DNA of 33,997 nucleotides from Endomicrobium sp. (GTDB taxonomy: Bacteria; Elusimicrobiota; Endomicrobiia; Endomicrobiales; Endomicrobiaceae). Both the position numbers and the translations under genes were made by a program. The stretch spans positions 1 through 33,997 of the forward strand of contig JAISLA010000002.1 of the NCBI GenBank assembly GCA_031260705.1, in the 5' to 3' direction. The notes beneath the pieces were generated by a model. That model made no database searches. It worked only from the letters and a program-made list of their open reading frames with translations, and was not told the origin of the DNA. Shown one piece after another: positions 8,714 to 30,407 of this stretch; the first letter of the stretch is position 1, and the number at the start of each line of letters is the position of its first letter.

Positions 8714-10359
8714 TCATCTCTTAAAATTCAGAATCAGAGTTTCAACACTATTTAATAATGCGTTTATGGAATCTTTATCTAAATTCACAGAAGCAAATTT
8801 ATAAAAATCAAACATTCCCAACATTTTTATTATTTCAATTAAAGCCTGATAAAGTAAATCCCGCGACGCTTCAAAATTATTTTCCGAAATCCTGTCTCCG
8901 CCTCCTTTCATAAGTTTTTGTACTTCAGCAAAATGAAAAGTTTTTAATTTTTTAAACGGATTTCTGGATACTCTTCTTACATATAGTATAACGTACGCTT
9001 AAAACGAACAATGCAATAAAAGGAACGAATATCAAATAGAACACCGGCTTTTCTATGAGATATCCTCTATACAATTTAAGTGTTTTTATCCGCTTATTGT
9101 AATCTATACTTTACGCATAATGTCTATTTTTGATTTATGTTTAACATTTTCTTCGGAATGTAAGGGCCCCACTTATGGTGATTTTTTGCGACGATGTCTT
9201 TATGGTTCTCATATTGTTTCTTTAAGAGACTAAAAAAAGACAGGCTTGCTGCAGGTATTTCCTTTTCGCCCGACACAAGCGGAATAAATATAGTTTTAAA
9301 TTTTTTTGAATTACCGGAAGTACTCGCGAATATAGTATCATATTTTTTTAAACCGCTATAAACACCAAAGTTTATGCCGCTTACGCTTTTCATATTCCCG
9401 TTTCCGCTTACAGTTACGGTCAAAGTTACAGGTTCGTTTATCCTGACATCTTTTTTATCAACGACAGCTTTTATTTCAAAATCACCTGCGTCTCCAGAAA
9501 AATCAGCAGGCTTCCCCTCCTTAGGCAAGGAAATAAAATTTATTTCTAATGATTCGGTTTCTAAAATTTTAGTCTTTCCGCCTCCCACATCCGCAAAAAA
9601 ACTGAAAAAATCATTCATTCCGGAAGGCAGCGAAAAATCCATAACCGCTATTTTTAATTTCGCAGGTAAAATTCCTTTTAATCCAGTTCCGACGGGATAT
9701 AAAGTCGTCTCTATTTCGTCAACGCGGGAATTTGAACCGTCTATAACCTCAAAATGATTTTTAGGTTTCGAGCCATCATTCCAAAAACCTGAAAAACCCG
9801 GCGGGGTAGTATTCGGGATTTGATACCAAATCAACTTTCGTATAAAAGCTGAACTTATAAACCAGCTTCTCATTTTCATAAGCAGTTTTCTTATTTAGGG
9901 AAGCTTTTACAAAAGCTTTTCCTGCCGCCGCATTCTGCGATGATGACTGCCGCTGATTAGCGATGACAGGAATACTATTAACGCTTTGAGCCGGTGTAAC
10001 TTCAATTTCTACGCTTTTTGTTAAATACATTTTACCATCAAACGTTATTTTGGCAGGTGGTATTGTAAATCTTCCTATTTTTTTCGGTTCCAAAGTATAG
10101 TCGCGTGTTATGCTCATGCTCGTTTTGCCATTGACTATAGATATGCTATGTGAAACAGCCGTTCCGAATCTGTTAAATTCCAGCACAGCGTCCATCTTAT
10201 ATTCCGGAAGATTCGTACTGTCCCCGCTCACCGTGACTGAATATATAAAAAACTCTTTAACGTCACAGTTTTCTTATTCGCAGATGCCTTAAAATAAATA
10301 GTTTCGGCAGATGCCAAAACAGATGTAAAAAGCAACAGCAGCAATACCTTTTTAAACAT
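8714..10359 (-). pseudogene. batD: BatD, aerotolerance operon protein, broken
   Basis: BatD is a membrane-anchored periplasmic protein of the Bat (Bacteroides aerotolerance) system. The start at 10359 encodes a signal peptide (MFKKVLLLLLFTSVLA). A one-base deletion after about 38 codons shifts the frame, and the protein continues as VSGDSTNLPEYKMDAVLEFNR, then in a third frame from about 9890 (NDGSKPKNHFEVIDGS, VVDKKDVRINEPVTLTVTVSGNGNMK), with beta-sandwich repeats as in BatD. The C-terminal membrane helix (FYLIFVPFIALFVLSV) and the tail RNPFKKLKTFHF are again in different frames, ending at 8714. At least three frameshifts; clearly not functional as one chain. Confidence 0.85.
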
Positions 10360-10360
10360 T

Positions 10361-10729
10361 TTACCAATTCTCTTGGGGTTGATTTAATGCCAGTTTTTTA
10401 TTTTTATTCCTTAATTTATTGGCTTTTCTGTCAGCTCCATTATAATAATTTAAAAATATCGACATAAGCATATCTTTCTTATCTTCTTTTTCTCCTGCCG
10501 GCTGCATTTCTAAAACTCCATATTGCTTTTCTTTCTCAGACTTATCTCTCAGCGGATTGTCCCCTTGAGACCCGTCTTTCCGTTCAGAGAACTTATTCTT
10601 AGTTACTCCAGTCTTTTTTAACGCTTTTATTTTATTGCTTATTCCCAGTTTTTGTTTGTTAAGTTCCAGTTTTTCTTCCTCTAAATTTTTTTGTACATTC
10701 TGCCGTTTTTGAATTTCATCTCTTACGCC
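10361..10729 (-). pseudogene. BatC-like C-terminal fragment without a start codon
   Basis: An open frame of about 122 codons lies between batB and batD, ending one base before the batD start. It overlaps the end of batB, but its first codons (GGC GTA AGA GAT) hold no start codon. It is hydrophilic and probably coiled coil (QKNLEEEKLELNKQKLG) and ends LNYYNGADRKANKLRN...QPQENW. Proteins at this position in bat operons are TPR proteins (BatC) that commonly end with a short basic stretch and an acidic-Asp/Asn-Trp terminus, which fits. Probably the remnant of batC after loss of the start and TPR part; a small intact gene using a rare start codon is the alternative. Confidence 0.5.
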
Positions 10730-11709
10730 TCAGAGGAAATAAAAGTTCCGTAAATAATGCAATTAAACTAAAAAGCAAAAATATCTGGAATCTATCAGTT
10801 TTACTGCTTTTCATGCCGACTTCACTGTTATTTTTATCTAAATTGCGGACGGTTTTTACAAACGACGGATAAACATCGTCATTTGAAGCGTCAAAATATT
10901 TTCCGCCCGTTTCTTCGGCAACACTTTTTAATAAAACAGGATTTACCCTGCTTATAACCACTTTACCGTTTACATCTTTTACATAATCTATTATCGCACC
11001 TGTTTCATCTTTAACAGGAATAGTCGCTCCTTCATCTGTTCCTATTCCGATAGAAATGATTCTTAAACCTGCTTTTTTGCCGCATTCGCAGCTTCTTTTA
11101 TTTTTGAGTCGTGATTTTTGCCGTCACTTATCAGAATCATTACCCTGCTGCCTACAGCCTCACCGCTTGTTGCTTTAGAAGCAAGCATACCCGCGTTGCT
11201 TACGCACGTACCGACTAAAGGAAGGTTAGTTGTTTCAATACTCTGCAAAAACATTTTTAGCGCCTGCAAGTCATAAGTCAAAGGACATTGCCACACAAGC
11301 AGTTCCAGAAAAAATGATAATACCCATTTTCTCACCGGGATTTTCTTCAACAATTCCCCAAATTATCATTTTTACTTTTTCAAGCCTACTCGGCTTTGAG
11401 TCTTCAGCAAGCATGCTTTTTGAAATATCCAAAGCCATAATTATTTCTGAAGACTCCTTAATTACCGTTCTCATTTTATCGCTGTACTGAAGACGAGCCA
11501 TTGCAAGAATAACAAAAAAAGCCCTGTGAGAAGCAAAATATACTTTATTTTATAAGCTTTTAAATTAACAGACACAAGCGTTGATATATTCACCCGCGAT
11601 ATTAAGAGATCCAAATGCTGCTTTCCTTTTTTTAAATACAACATAAAAAAAAGACTACCAACACCGGGATCAGCAATAGAAGCAATAAATAGATTTTATC
11701 CGCAAACAT
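10716..11709 (-). pseudogene. batB: BatB, von Willebrand factor A membrane protein, broken
   Basis: VWA-domain inner-membrane protein. The start at 11709 (AAGGA ribosome site) gives a first membrane helix (YLLLLLLIPVLVVFFF) and a second at ILLLTGLF. A frameshift follows near 11510, then the VWA domain with the MIDAS motif (ALDISKSM) and SRLEKVKMI. Another frameshift comes after GIIIFSGTA, then LISDGKNHDSKIKEAANA, and another before GIGTDEGATIPV. The end VNPVLLKSVAEETGGKYFDAS plus a C-terminal helix (FLLFSLIALFTELLF) is in frame to 10716. Order and domains match BatB; at least three frameshifts. Confidence 0.85.
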
Positions 11710-11851
11710 ATTTCCTTTATGCCTTCTCTCCGCCTATCATTTGATCAGATAAAAAAGTTTAAAAAGACCGGACATTTTAAGTGTTTTATCTCTTAAGCAT
11801 TGCAATCTCCAGTTTTATCGTTCATCCTACTTTTAATTTTTCACTCCGACG

Positions 11852-12660
11852 TTAAGGAAGTTTTCTCAAATAAGTGTTTTCTAAAACGATTATAAGTAAC
11901 AGTAAAATAAAAGCCGGAACCAAAAAATATTTATATAGCTCTCTGTAATTTGTAAACTGTATAACTTCAATCTCATCTTTTTCCAGCTTATCTATTTGTT
12001 TCATTATATTTCCAAAAGATTTTGCGTCCTGCGCCCTGAAATATCCGCCGCCGGTATTATGCGCTATTCCTTTTAAAACACTCTCATTTATCGCATCCTG
12101 TCTATATTTAATTTCTCTTTTACCTAAAAACGGATCATCCACCTCATATCATAAATTGCACCATCAAGACTTCCTACTCCTACAGCATAAATTTTTATAT
12201 CACAGCTTCGGGCTATTTCTGAAGCAGTTAAAGGATCGATTTCTCCCATATTGTTATTTCCATCAGTAACAAGAATTATAATTTTACTTTTAGCCCAGAT
12301 GTCTTTTAACCTATTGACGGAAGTTATTATTATTGACGGAAGTTATTATTGCAGAACCTATTTCATTATTTCTAAACTCCTTTCTATAAAGCCATCAATG
12401 TTATCTATTTCAAACACATCGTTTGGAAACATTTGCTGAGCATTCTGATGCATTTAACTATTCTATCTATAATCGTGATGTACTCCTATCCCGTAATTCA
12501 AATACGTTAGCTAACGCTTCTCCTCAAATATCACACATTAACTGCAGCTACCCACACCCCTCCATAGGTGAGAGGACTGCTATTGATACTAAGTTCCTTT
12601 TAATTCTCTATACCTTTAAAACATTTCGAGATTTGCAACCGCTAATACTAGATAAATACA
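11852..12660 (-). pseudogene. batA: BatA, von Willebrand factor A membrane protein, broken
   Basis: First gene of the bat remnant. Near 12650 the frame reads YLVLAVANLEM and then YRELKG, as in the BatA membrane helix region. The MIDAS part is not recognisable. From about 12390 the VWA core is clear (NEIGSAIITS, KIIILVTDGNNNMGEIDPL, CDIKIYAVGVGSLDGAIYD), then after one frameshift DDPFLGKREIKYRQDAINE, NTGGGYFRAQDAKSFGNIM and a C-terminal helix (FLVPAFILLLLIIVL) ending at 11852. A 19-bp tandem duplication at 12313-12350 also breaks the frame. Confidence 0.8.
12313..12350. repeat. 19-bp perfect tandem duplication inside batA
   Basis: The unit attgacggaagttattatt occurs twice head to tail (12313-12331 and 12332-12350). 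Nineteen is not a multiple of three, so the duplication itself is a frameshift in the VWA core. It looks like a replication-slippage scar. Confidence 0.9.
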
Positions 12661-25803: not shown

Positions 25804-26160
25804 TTGCTTTTCCTCTTTATTTCGCATAAACACTGTATTACTATGCCTAAAACTGCAATCGATGCGTTTTTTCCGTCACTTCGGACAAACTTCAGTTTCG
25901 CAAGCTTCTGTTATCGCATCTTTGCCATCAACGCAGATAAATCATACCTACCACCGTCCCGGTCTTCCAAATGATAACTCCAAATAAGTTTCGGCACACT
26001 TATACCCGCTCCAGCTGCCAGATTATCCGACTATTAAGCAAACGGGAGGAATTCGTTAAACACACTATCTCCCACTTTTCCCCCTTATCTTATTGCTCAT
26101 TAAAAAAGAAGAAAGAGAAAGGTGTGTATATTTGGATAACAGCAAAAAGCTTTTAATATA
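25804..26160. other. Spacer between tRNA-Leu and tig, nothing coding recognised
   Basis: About 350 bases, probably transcribed as a long leader of tig after the tRNAs. It holds the second copy of the 14-bp repeat (26006-26019). I found no convincing reading frame or riboswitch. Confidence 0.4.
26006..26019. repeat. 14-bp direct repeat, copy 2 (upstream of tig)
   Basis: Exact match of ccgctccagctgcc to 24415-24428. Here the flanks differ and no inverted partner is seen. Confidence 0.6.
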
Positions 26161-26242
26161 TGCGGACGGAGGGACTTGAACCCCCATACCCTGCGGTATA
26201 TAGTTCTAAGCCATACGCGTCTGCCAATTCCGCCACGTCCGC
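26161..26242 (-). tRNA. tRNA-Leu (anticodon UAG)
   Basis: Full cloverleaf on the minus strand. The 7-bp acceptor is GCGGACG/CGTCCGC, the D arm GCGGAATTGGCAGACGC, and the anticodon loop CTTAGAA in a TATGG/CTATA stem. A long variable arm (TACC-GCA-GGTA), diagnostic of class II tRNA, is followed by a T arm with TTCAAGT. Discriminator A; CCA is not encoded. Confidence 0.95.
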
Positions 26243-26249
26243 ATAAACA

Positions 26250-26322
26250 TGCGCTGCATAGGAATCGAACCTATAATCTAACGATTAAGAGTCGTTTGCT
26301 CTACCAATTGAGCTAGCAGCGC
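26250..26322 (-). tRNA. tRNA-Lys (anticodon CUU)
   Basis: Full cloverleaf on the minus strand. The acceptor is GCGCTGC/GCAGCGC, the D arm GCTCAATTGGTAGAGC, and the anticodon loop CTCTTAA in an AACGA/TCGTT stem. The T arm is ATAGG-TTCGATT-CCTAT. Discriminator A; CCA is not encoded. It lies 7 bases upstream of tRNA-Leu in the same transcript. Confidence 0.95.
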
Positions 26323-26363
26323 AATAAAATTAGCACATCGGCACAGGCACACTTTAAAAAAAA

Positions 26364-27058: not shown

Positions 27059-27158
27059 ATTAATCTAAATTATCATCGAGGACAACAGCAAACTTTTTCA
27101 TTCTTTCTATTGTATCAAAATGAATTAATCTAAATTATCATCGAGGACAACAGCAAAC
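27059..27158. CRISPR. Two copies of a 35-bp direct repeat with a 30-bp spacer (CRISPR-like remnant)
   Basis: Identical 35-base units occupy 27059-27093 and 27124-27158; on the minus strand each begins GTTTGCTGTTG and ends TTTAGATTAAT. The 30 bases between them are unlike the flanks. A 35-36-base repeat with 30-base spacers and a GTT start is the geometry of type II arrays. No cas gene, leader or third repeat is visible in the window. A simple local duplication is the alternative. Confidence 0.35.
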
Positions 27159-27325: not shown

Positions 27326-28627
27326 TTAAACATACTCATCCCGTACCCCGCGGCTTATATTACTGAAAAACTTCTCCAGTACCATAAGTCCAGCTTTATC
27401 AAGTTTTGTTTTATATTCCTCAATAAGACTATATCCCAATCTTTTAAGTTCAGGTTTTGCCAAATCCATAAAATGTTCGCCCGTCCTGTTTTTACAATAA
27501 CAAGCGGCGCAAAAACTTGATATAAATCCCTGCAAAAGCAGGGATTTTACTATTTCATCAAGAGTACGCTGAACTGTCTTTCAAGTTTATCATTATGCGG
27601 AGTTCCCACCAGATTATCTTCGTATCCGCCGGGAGTAACTCTTGATTCTGCGCTTATCTGCGAAACGCCAAGATTTACAAGAACGTCCCTCATGCCCGCT
27701 GTTTCCCTCGTTGACATTATTATTCCGGTATAAGGAACAGAGAGTCTTAAAACAGCTACCAGTTTTTTAAATTCTTCATCTGCAAACGGGTATTCAAGAT
27801 TTGAAGCATATGCGGATCCACTCGCCGGTTCAATGCGCGGAACCGAAATCCGAAATAGTGTGAGGATCAACTCCGTAAACTTTTTCCATATACTTATATG
27901 CACAAGCATTGCAAGAATTTCAAAACGATAATCGTAAAAACCAAGCAACGGTCATATTCCGACGTCGTCAATCCCAGCTCTAAACGCATTGTCTACTGCA
28001 TCTAAACAATTGTCAGGATCAGACTTTGCACCCGCAATATGAAGTTTTCTGCAAGTTTCCTGGAATAATCTGGTACGTACCGATACCTACTTCTTTCAAT
28101 CTTTTAAACCCGCTAACACTCATAGGGGGCACATTTACATTTACTCTTTTATCTTATTTCCTTTGTAATCCGCACTATAAATTGCTTTAACCGTACCGAT
28201 ATAATAATCCGTATTTTCTTCCGAAGAGGACATTTCTCCAGCAACCATCAAAATACGTTTATGTCCTCTTTTTAGAAGTATCTCCGTCTGCTCTTTTATT
28301 TCCTGAAACGTAAGTTTCTTTCTGACAGTAAGCTTATTGTCTGATGCAAAACCGCAGTAAAGACAACTGTTTGAGCAGAAATTGCTTATATAAGAGGCAC
28401 AAACATAACAACACGCTTGCCGTACACAGTATTTTTACATAGGGAGCCGCATCGTAAAATTTTTTAAGAAGCGCAGAACTGGTCACAGATAAAAGTTTTG
28501 CAGATTCTTCCACGTTAAGTCTTTTAAGCTGTTTTGTTTTTTCCAAAATACTGTCAATTTCTTTTTCAGATGCCTTTATCTCAAGAAAAGAATTTATCTT
28601 TATTTTATCTATTTTATATGTTTCAAT
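27326..28627 (-). pseudogene. hydG: HydG, [FeFe]-hydrogenase maturase, decayed
   Basis: HydG is the radical-SAM tyrosine lyase that makes CO and cyanide for the hydrogenase H-cluster. Bridging frames on the minus strand gives FLEIKASEKEID, KFYDAAPYVK, a frame change, then SNFCSNSCLYCGFASDN with the CX3CX2C cluster motif, ILLKRGHKRILMVAGE, RVNVNVPPMSVSGF, LGFYDYRFEILAMLVH, ISVPRIEPASGSAYASNLE, LAVLRLSVPYTGIIMSTRE, GVSQISAESRVTPGGYEDN and the C-terminal FCAACYCKNRTGEHFM, which is the HydG-specific second cluster motif and separates it from ThiH. Breaks include frameshifts near 27545, 27880 and 28400 and a stop near 27980. An AGGAGGG ribosome site precedes 28627, where the expected ATG reads ATT. 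Confidence 0.85.
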
Positions 28628-28670: not shown

Positions 28671-30407
28671 TTACAATCCGCTTATGCAGACACTTCCCTC
28701 TTTTACAAAAGAAATAAAATTGTCAACACTCATAACGCCCAAATCTCTATTGCCTCTTGCTCTTACGGCAACCGCACACGCATCTTTTTCTTTATTTCCG
28801 ACAACTGCTATATAAGGAATTTTCCGCATTGCGCTTTCTCTTATTTTATGCCCTATCTTTTCATTCCTGCCATCGAAAATAACTCTTATATCGTTCTTTT
28901 TTAATTTCTGCGACAATCCTTCGCAGAACCCGCGCTGTTCTTCATTAATATTTGCCACCGCAACTTGAACGGGAGAAAGCCAAAGCGGAAGAGCACCGGC
29001 ATAATGTTCTAAAAGAATACCTATAAACCTTTCCAAAGATCCCAATAATGCCCTGTGAATCATATAAGGTCTTGCTTTTTTACCCGACGAGTTAATATAA
29101 AAAATATCAAACCTTTCAGGAAGATTAAAATCGAATTGTACCGTCGAACACTGCCAGAGCCGTCCTATAGCGTCTTTTATCTTTATGTCGATTTTAGGTC
29201 CGTAAAAAGCCCCCCCGCCTTCGTCAATTTCATAGGCACAGCCTGTTTTTTTCAAAGCGTTTTCAATGGAATTTTGTGCTTTTTCCCAATCTTCTATTTC
29301 ACCTATATATTTTTGGGGGGGTCTTGTGGCAAAATAAATCTTATATTCGTTAAATCCAAAAGTTTTAAGACAGTCTATCGCCATATTAAAAACTCCGAGC
29401 ATTTCTTCTTCAAGCTGTTCCGGAACAACAATAATATGTCCATCGTCTTGAGTAAATCCCCTGACTCTCAAAAGTCCATGCAAAACACCTGACTTTTCAA
29501 ATCTATAAACCGTGCCAAGTTCTGCATATCTTATCGGAAGTTCCCTGTAAGAATGAAGTTTTGTTTTGTATATCATCAAATGCATAGGACAGTTCATAGG
29601 TTTTATCCGGTAAGGGTTTCCTTCTATTTCCATAGACGCATACATATTTTCAGAATAAGTCTGTAAATGACCGCTTATTTTAAAAAGCTCTTCGCTTGCA
29701 ATATGGGGTGTAAACAGAAGATCATAACCGTTTTCAAGATGAAACTTCTTCCAATAATTCTCAATAATATCTTTCAAAAGGGCGCCTTTAGGATGCCACA
29801 GAACCAAACCGCCTCCGACAGTCTCATCAAAACTGAACAAATCCAAATCTTTTCCGAGTTTCCTATGATCTCTTTTGCGGGCTTCTTCAATTCCAGTCAA
29901 ATAATCGTCAATATCTTTTTTCGTAAGAAATGCCGTTCCATAAATTCTCTGCAGCTGGTCCCTTGAAGAATCGCCTCTCCAATAAGCACTTGCAATGGAA
30001 AGAAGTTTAAAATATTTAAGTTCCCCTGTTGAATTTATATGAGGTCCCCTGCATAAATCTGTAAAATTTCCAGACCTGTACATACTTACTTTATCGTCTT
30101 CTATCTGAGAAGCTATTTCAGCTTTATATTTCTCGCCTTTTTCCCGAAATTCTCTAACAGCTTTGTCTTTAGACACATACGAACATATAAAAGGATAGTC
30201 TGCCTTTATTATTTCTGCCATCTTTTCTTCAATTTTTGCCAGATCTCCCGGAGTAAAAGATTGCTCTCTGTCAAAATCATAATAAAATCCGTCTTCTATC
30301 GACGGACCAATTGCAACTTTTGTCCCGGGAAAAAGCTCCATGACAGCTGCCGACATTATATGCGCTGCAGAATGTCTTAAAATATCCAGCGATTTCTGTT
30401 TTTCCAT
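28671..30407 (-). CDS. thrS: Threonyl-tRNA synthetase without the N-terminal TGS domain
   Basis: Charges tRNA-Thr. The 578 residues start directly at the editing domain (LRHSAAHIMSAAV with the HxxxH zinc-like motif; DLCRGPH with its Cys and His). The class II catalytic core follows, with motif 2 (RYAELGTVYRFE) and zinc ligands in MNCPMH and GFTQDDGHI, then the anticodon-binding domain (PVQVAVANINEEQRG, FDGRNEKIGHKIRESAMRKIPY). Bacterial ThrRS usually has about 60 more residues forming a TGS domain at the N-terminus; no TGS-like sequence is seen upstream of 30407. The ATG has no Shine-Dalgarno. A C7 run in the coding strand (RPPQ codons, near 29309) is in frame. Confidence 0.95.
   Translation of the reverse strand: MEKQKSLDILRHSAAHIMSAAVMELFPGTKVAIGPSIEDGFYYDFDREQSFTPGDLAKIEEKMAEIIKADYPFICSYVSKDKAVREFREKGEKYKAEIASQIEDDKVSMYRSGNFTDLCRGPHINSTGELKYFKLLSIASAYWRGDSSRDQLQRIYGTAFLTKKDIDDYLTGIEEARKRDHRKLGKDLDLFSFDETVGGGLVLWHPKGALLKDIIENYWKKFHLENGYDLLFTPHIASEELFKISGHLQTYSENMYASMEIEGNPYRIKPMNCPMHLMIYKTKLHSYRELPIRYAELGTVYRFEKSGVLHGLLRVRGFTQDDGHIIVVPEQLEEEMLGVFNMAIDCLKTFGFNEYKIYFATRPPQKYIGEIEDWEKAQNSIENALKKTGCAYEIDEGGGAFYGPKIDIKIKDAIGRLWQCSTVQFDFNLPERFDIFYINSSGKKARPYMIHRALLGSLERFIGILLEHYAGALPLWLSPVQVAVANINEEQRGFCEGLSQKLKKNDIRVIFDGRNEKIGHKIRESAMRKIPYIAVVGNKEKDACAVAVRARGNRDLGVMSVDNFISFVKEGSVCISGL

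Follow-up and report, generated by a model that had tools for sequence, protein, structure and literature searches.

If the hydG gene of a bacterium is broken, what becomes of its hydrogenases? The window, a 33,997-nt stretch of DNA from Endomicrobium sp. that makes up a whole contig, carries hydG on its minus strand (Table 1). The preliminary description recognized a frame-broken HydG here and proposed that, if this is the only copy, hydrogen metabolism has been or is being lost. The first part holds, as the gene lacks 25 codons and has 7–8 frameshifts and one in-frame stop. The second finds mixed support: hydG and hydF are broken and hydE has no match over the cut-off, but both hydrogenases, HydABC and a group B enzyme, are intact.

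Table 1. Features of the hydG region, in window coordinates
Feature	Position	Strand	Evidence
thrS, intact, directly upstream of hydG	28671..30407	-	ORF; TIGR00418, 718 bits
hydG pseudogene (H-cluster maturase, radical SAM tyrosine lyase)	27329..28612	-	TIGR03955 pieces; frameshift-tolerant and nucleotide alignments
Radical-SAM motif CX3CX2C (CSNSCLYC), readable in one frame segment	28354..28377	-	Sequence and alignment
CAAC, Cys 1 and 2 of the auxiliary-cluster motif CX2CX22C	27500..27511	-	Sequence and alignments
75-bp deletion junction in hydG, same in G064	27454..27455	-	Nucleotide alignment

The NCBIfam HydG profile TIGR03955 matches the window in three pieces on the minus strand: 27607-28401 (E 3.2e-53, with six stops read through), 27452-27574 (E 2.7e-11) and 28037-28150 (E 1.4e-4). 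The best piece scores 178.6 bits against a curated cut-off of 312.15, and no single open frame exceeds this cut-off. Three intact HydG proteins, from genomes G024 (the closest maturase-bearing relative), G018 and G026, served as references. Frameshift-tolerant alignment with the G024 protein (496 aa) spans 28719-27329, with 369 of 453 aligned residues identical (81.5%), and reveals 8 frameshifts, one in-frame stop and 35 deleted residues; the corresponding figures are 8, 1 and 34 with G018 and 7, 1 and 34 with G026. Homology thus extends over the whole gene and includes the radical-SAM motif, but the window copy is inactivated and its auxiliary-cluster motif incomplete. We take the defining HydG motifs to be a radical-SAM CX3CX2C and a C-terminal auxiliary-cluster CX2CX22C. 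Both had been described as present; CSNSCLYC is, but the auxiliary motif is reduced to CAAC, its third cysteine having been lost inside the 75-bp (25-codon) deletion. Read-through or recoding was rejected, since the breaks lie in several frames and are accompanied by long deletions. The window hydG is therefore confirmed as a true pseudogene.

Could the frame breaks be sequencing or assembly errors? Some of the indels are single bases, part of them in runs, which would favor such a reading. However, nucleotide alignment with G024, G018 and G064 also reveals deletions of 13, 14 and 75 bp and a 7-bp tandem duplication. Neighboring genes are open (thrS, 578 aa; glyS, 704 aa; lon, 802 aa; clpX, 414 aa), all four scoring above NCBIfam cut-offs. 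Large lesions among open neighbors argue that the breaks are not a sequencing artefact, and as the same 75-bp deletion occurs in G064, a separate assembly, error is refuted in practice and we give it next to no weight. In the intact hydG of G024, two imperfect direct repeats flank the stretch that is deleted, so the deletion could have a common origin in the two genomes or have arisen in parallel. HydG adjoins thrS also in relatives such as G024, G025 and G026 and in G064, making thrS a syntenic anchor.

Several other features of the window were recorded. Beside the hydG wreck, two identical 35-nt repeats (27059-27093 and 27124-27158; their starts are 65 nt apart and they enclose a 30-nt spacer) look like a one-unit CRISPR remnant, and genes for tRNA-Leu and tRNA-Lys lie downstream of the hydG region (26160-26323, minus strand). 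Fragmented ORFs occupy 9124-12142 on the minus strand. Two contain BatD domains, and three within 10716-12142, which have no Pfam match, resemble von Willebrand/Bat pieces; the stretch is probably another decayed operon. An intact MFS transporter (PF07690; 12851-14188, plus strand) may belong to the antiporters for sugar phosphates described in Endomicrobiellum.

The genome of the window (G000; 989,969 bp in 17 contigs, 81.4% complete) is related to symbionts found within termite-gut protists. Its nearest genome in our searches, G064 (ThrS 93% identical; DNA 90.4% identical over 6.4 kb), is approximately complete (99%, four contigs, one of 1,114,532 bp) and includes a 5,518-bp replicon that, over the 3000 bases compared, is 100% identical to NZ_AP017460.1 of Ca. 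Endomicrobium trichonymphae from Trichonympha agilis. A HydA scan that left out G000 itself returned 48 loci, with Endomicrobium/Endomicrobiellum MAGs (Endomicrobia) as closest named relatives and the rest in more distant phyla. We regard G000 as an Endomicrobium/Endomicrobiellum symbiont that is a close but separate relative of Ca. E. trichonymphae.

Is the broken hydG the only copy? A profile search of the assembly (990 kb, 81% complete) found no second one, and none of the genomes of the genus had two HydG matches over the cut-off in our searches. The hydF gene, on contig C12, is itself a pseudogene with five frameshifts and a stop. An 8-nt gap at its end, present in both G000 and G064, was set aside as C-terminal length variation; without it, hydF has 5 frame-breaks and G000 has 15 lesions in total, and with it 6 and 16. 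For hydE there is no match over the cut-off in the assembled genome. Its neighborhood, sought with G024 DNA, yielded a single 156-bp match outside hydE, and the hydE-mnmA neighborhood of G064 gave nothing above 150 bits in 28 contig-end stretches; hydE is either deleted or unassembled. With hydG and hydF broken and no hydE over the cut-off, the cell has lost its canonical means of building the H-cluster. The idea that hydG is the only copy thus has strong but not final backing in G000, since the assembly is 81% complete; it is firmer for G064 (99%). An intact hydG accompanied by hydE/hydF elsewhere, which would make the window copy redundant, was looked for in the assembled genome and did not appear. 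Intact hydE, hydF and hydG could still sit in the unassembled part, as the genome is fragmented and the hydE-mnmA region may be among what is unseen, but two of the genes are wrecked in G000 and all three in G064, and we consider this very unlikely.

In contrast to the maturases, the hydrogenases have been kept. HydC, HydB and HydA (162, 623 and 667 aa) are intact on contig C14. HydA scores 474.7 bits against the group A profile TIGR02512 (cut-off 405.95); its best-scoring profile is NF040763 (group A6), yet at 729.9 bits it falls below that cut-off of 765. The three H-cluster motifs, with their four ligand cysteines, are present in G000 and G064 as TSCCPAW, MPCTAKKFEA and MACPGGCIGG. A monomeric group B [FeFe]-hydrogenase (483 aa; TIGR04105, 492.6 bits, cut-off 450) is intact on contig C13, adjoining an intact AdhE (1386 bits). 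The gene order purA-thyX-cpa-hydC-hydB-hydA-ruvX-mltG-iscS recurs unchanged in 8 of the 11 genomes compared (G000, G064, G018, G026, G007, G029, G028 and G032); in G024, G025 and G014, one to three of the nine genes are absent from the stretch, and the order is kept. This common gene order argues that HydABC is neither contamination nor a recent transfer. The 4.36 kb of hydCBA contain no frame-break or stop, compared with approximately 27–29 expected at the lesion density of the genome's own pseudogenes (the range reflects leaving out or counting the 8-nt hydF gap).

Evidence on whether HydABC has been maintained comes from the sister genome G064. It has no HydE, HydF or HydG match over the cut-off, and its hydE, hydF, hydG and group B hydA are wrecks, whereas HydABC is intact. 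Only the ends of hydE are left, beside an intact mnmA, with approximately 170 internal residues missing, and 11 indels and 8 stops interrupt group B hydA. We counted amino-acid/synonymous changes on the G064 tip branch, polarized by G024. These were 70/9 for hydG, 56/12 for hydF and 36/15 for group B hydA, compared with 18/25 for hydA, 22/28 for hydB, 8/3 for hydC and 88/89 for eight control genes together. HydABC (48/56) is similar to the controls (Fisher P 0.62) and differs from hydG plus hydF (126/21; P 2.5e-11); at the pseudogene rate, 261 amino-acid changes would be expected instead of 48. The outcome was the same with four control genes and then with all eight polarizable controls. HydABC of G064 has therefore been under purifying selection after its maturases decayed. 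Between G000 and G064, dN/dS is 0.17 for hydA, 0.21 for hydB and 0.27 for hydC, within the 0.10–0.46 range of 11 controls.

Cysteines that are invariant in three maturase-bearing relatives are also conserved: 27/27 in HydA and 26/26 in HydB are kept in G000, G064 and G028, as are 5/5 in HydC of G000 and G064 and 4/5 in HydC of G028. At 141 H-domain sites invariant among nine relatives, there are no changes in G064, one in G000 and six in G028. For G064, 6.3 changes would be expected if approximately 35 pocket codons were free to vary (P 0.002) and 1.8 if only approximately 10 strictly [2Fe]-specific codons were (P 0.16), both codon numbers being our choice.

For G000, the substitutions say less. 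On its tip, changes are 13/11 in hydG and 17/9 in hydF (P 0.08–0.09 versus controls); with so few excess substitutions, the loss looks recent and selection after loss is not demonstrable by substitutions in this genome. Over the whole G000 lineage since G024, amino-acid changes are in excess (38 versus 15 in hydG, 36 versus 19 in hydF). One mismatch is not fully explained: substitutions in hydG on the G000 tip resemble those of a working gene, yet the gene has 7–8 frameshifts.

How widespread is maturase loss? HydG is over the cut-off in 28 of 41 genomes of the genus and has no such match in 13 (G000, G001, G002, G003, G017, G021, G027, G028, G031, G033, G034, G061 and G064), several of which are incomplete (G003, 34%; G034, 63%; G021, 66%). 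Although the loss of hydG had been called unusual, it is not so within this genus, even with several of the 13 far from complete, and the frequency fits the genome erosion that PMC11257099 reports for these endosymbionts. G003 has a HydE match over the cut-off despite having no HydG. Among the 13, HydABC-type HydA occurs in 3 (G000, G028 and G064), group B alone in 1 (G033) and neither type in 9. G033 (L062; 95% complete) combines an intact group B hydrogenase, with 26/26 invariant cysteines, with no HydE, HydF or HydG over the cut-off. In G028 (85% complete), HydABC is intact and there is no HydE, HydF or HydG over the cut-off, although maturases could be unseen at that completeness. Since G028, a separate lineage, is sister to the maturase-bearing G008 in a ThrS tree (one gene, 36 genomes, FastTree, midpoint root), its loss would be separate from that of G000 and G064. 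Its HydA (L127 8114-10153) has Val in place of the L2-motif Met. G032 (L058, L199) is a converse case of decay, in which HydE, HydF and HydG are over the cut-off, an H-cluster ligand Cys of HydA is replaced by Tyr, and HydB is open over 185 aa only.

These results suggest that the hydrogenase of G000 either now has a job other than making H2 or obtains its active site by an unknown way. The chances are roughly even that H2 turnover has been lost and that HydABC persists in a role independent of H2, which may be ferredoxin:NAD+ oxidoreduction. Following the death of hydG, hydF and hydE (for hydE, as shown by the sister G064), the [2Fe] part of the H-cluster would no longer be made by the canonical route. 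Retained at its ancestral locus under purifying selection, HydABC would function as an apo-complex that lacks the [2Fe] site but has FMN, the NADH site and the Fe-S chain, and may link the ferredoxin and NAD(H) pools by electron transfer, for example to feed AdhE. For pyruvate:ferredoxin oxidoreductase we rely on PMC11257099. There is a laboratory counterpart: E. coli cannot make the [2Fe] subcluster, and apo-HydABC from E. coli holds the other cofactors, FMN only in part at 0.2 per protein, according to two reports (PMC9499530, PMC7064455). No RnfC exceeded the cut-off in five genomes, and in the four that have HydABC the top hit was HydB itself. From the cofactor assembly of the apo-complex and the lack of an RnfC over the cut-off, we infer that HydABC may serve as a ferredoxin/NADH oxidoreductase without H2; its activity without the [2Fe] site is predicted from homology to HoxEFU and the intact cysteines. 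Against an H2-independent role, the untouched H-cluster domain of G064 goes beyond the needs of a pure diaphorase, most lineages lacking maturases also lack HydABC (HydA is kept in 3 of 13), and HydA has changed a little more on the G000 lineage than on that of G024 (47 versus 32 changes with G018 as outgroup, 45 versus 34 with G025).

Two other explanations must be weighed. One, to which we give perhaps one chance in a handful, is that HydABC is still a working hydrogenase whose [2Fe] unit comes in trans from the flagellate host or another symbiont, or is made by an unrecognized maturation route. Hydrogenosomes of the flagellate host need HydE, HydF and HydG, and a more specific version, in which the [2Fe] cofactor or loaded HydF comes from these hydrogenosomes or from a co-symbiont to complete the H-cluster of HydABC, is unlikely; if true, it would be a cross-kingdom sharing of an organometallic cofactor. 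To our knowledge, no route is known by which the [2Fe] precursor or HydF could be transferred into the bacterial cytoplasm. The idea fits the H-cluster domain of G064, since its 141 unchanged sites leave room for maturation in trans, and also the intact H-cluster motifs of both genomes and the selection that persists after maturase loss. Precedents come from eukaryotes that have lost at least one maturase and still retain [FeFe]-hydrogenases (PMC4967309). The decay of the group B hydrogenase in G064 would be odd if there were an H-cluster supply, and the altered L2 motif of G028 HydA and the lack of matches over the cut-off for all three maturases in G064 also speak against a working hydrogenase.

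It is also possible, with about the same limited probability, that ordinary erosion has been caught midway, H2 metabolism having been abandoned recently and HydABC being a relic still awaiting decay. The few excess substitutions in the G000 maturases, the absence of both hydrogenase types from 9 of the 13 genomes without HydG (several of them incomplete) and the converse decay in G032 would all be consistent with this. For G064 it is refuted, as the maturases have evolved approximately neutrally on the tip branch while HydABC has accumulated less than a fifth of the changes expected of a relic. The unbroken hydCBA of G000 and the intact hydCBA of G028, which has no maturase match over the cut-off, also argue against it.

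The H2-independent role that we favor can be set beside known systems. HydABC resembles the electron-bifurcating complex of Thermotoga maritima in its three subunits, domain content, H-cluster motifs and invariant cysteines; the difference is that the cells of G000 and G064 lack H-cluster maturases. Each of the HydG, HydF and HydE cut-offs was exceeded in one of 14 control genomes, and an H-cluster domain occurred only in that of T. maritima. Apo-HydABC from E. coli, with other cofactors and no [2Fe], matches the native state predicted here, but is a laboratory preparation and not a natural endpoint. The HoxEFU diaphorase module of cyanobacterial [NiFe]-hydrogenase is a homologous NADH/FMN/Fe-S module that links ferredoxin and NAD(P)H without a hydrogenase site; it has no H-domain, whereas G000 and G064 keep a full HydA. 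In Rhodospirillum rubrum, Entamoeba and Monocercomonoides, [FeFe]-hydrogenases occur although some or all of the maturases are missing (PMC4967309), so the kind is already known. Unlike in those organisms, the wrecks, a sister with a broken group B hydrogenase and intact congeners make selection measurable here. As far as the literature searched shows, a case with visible maturase wrecks and measured selection after their loss is new. Within the open-licence literature searched, which does not include the original descriptions of Rs-D17, E. proavitum and the genomovars, we found no report of the maturase loss.

What does this mean for the Endomicrobiaceae? In PMC11257099, fermentation to hydrogen among other products is ascribed to the whole family and HydABC, classified as group A3, to most genera; hydrogenase genes are reported in Em. 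trichonymphae, and lineages H and I are said to lack enzymes that reoxidize NADH and ferredoxin. The word "maturation" is absent from its main text. Genome studies deduce H2 production from the presence of hydrogenase genes alone, and if the maturases are dead, this deduction does not hold for a well-known protist endosymbiont. A HydABC that is naturally without maturases and under measurable selection would be a natural experiment on the bifurcating core without H2.
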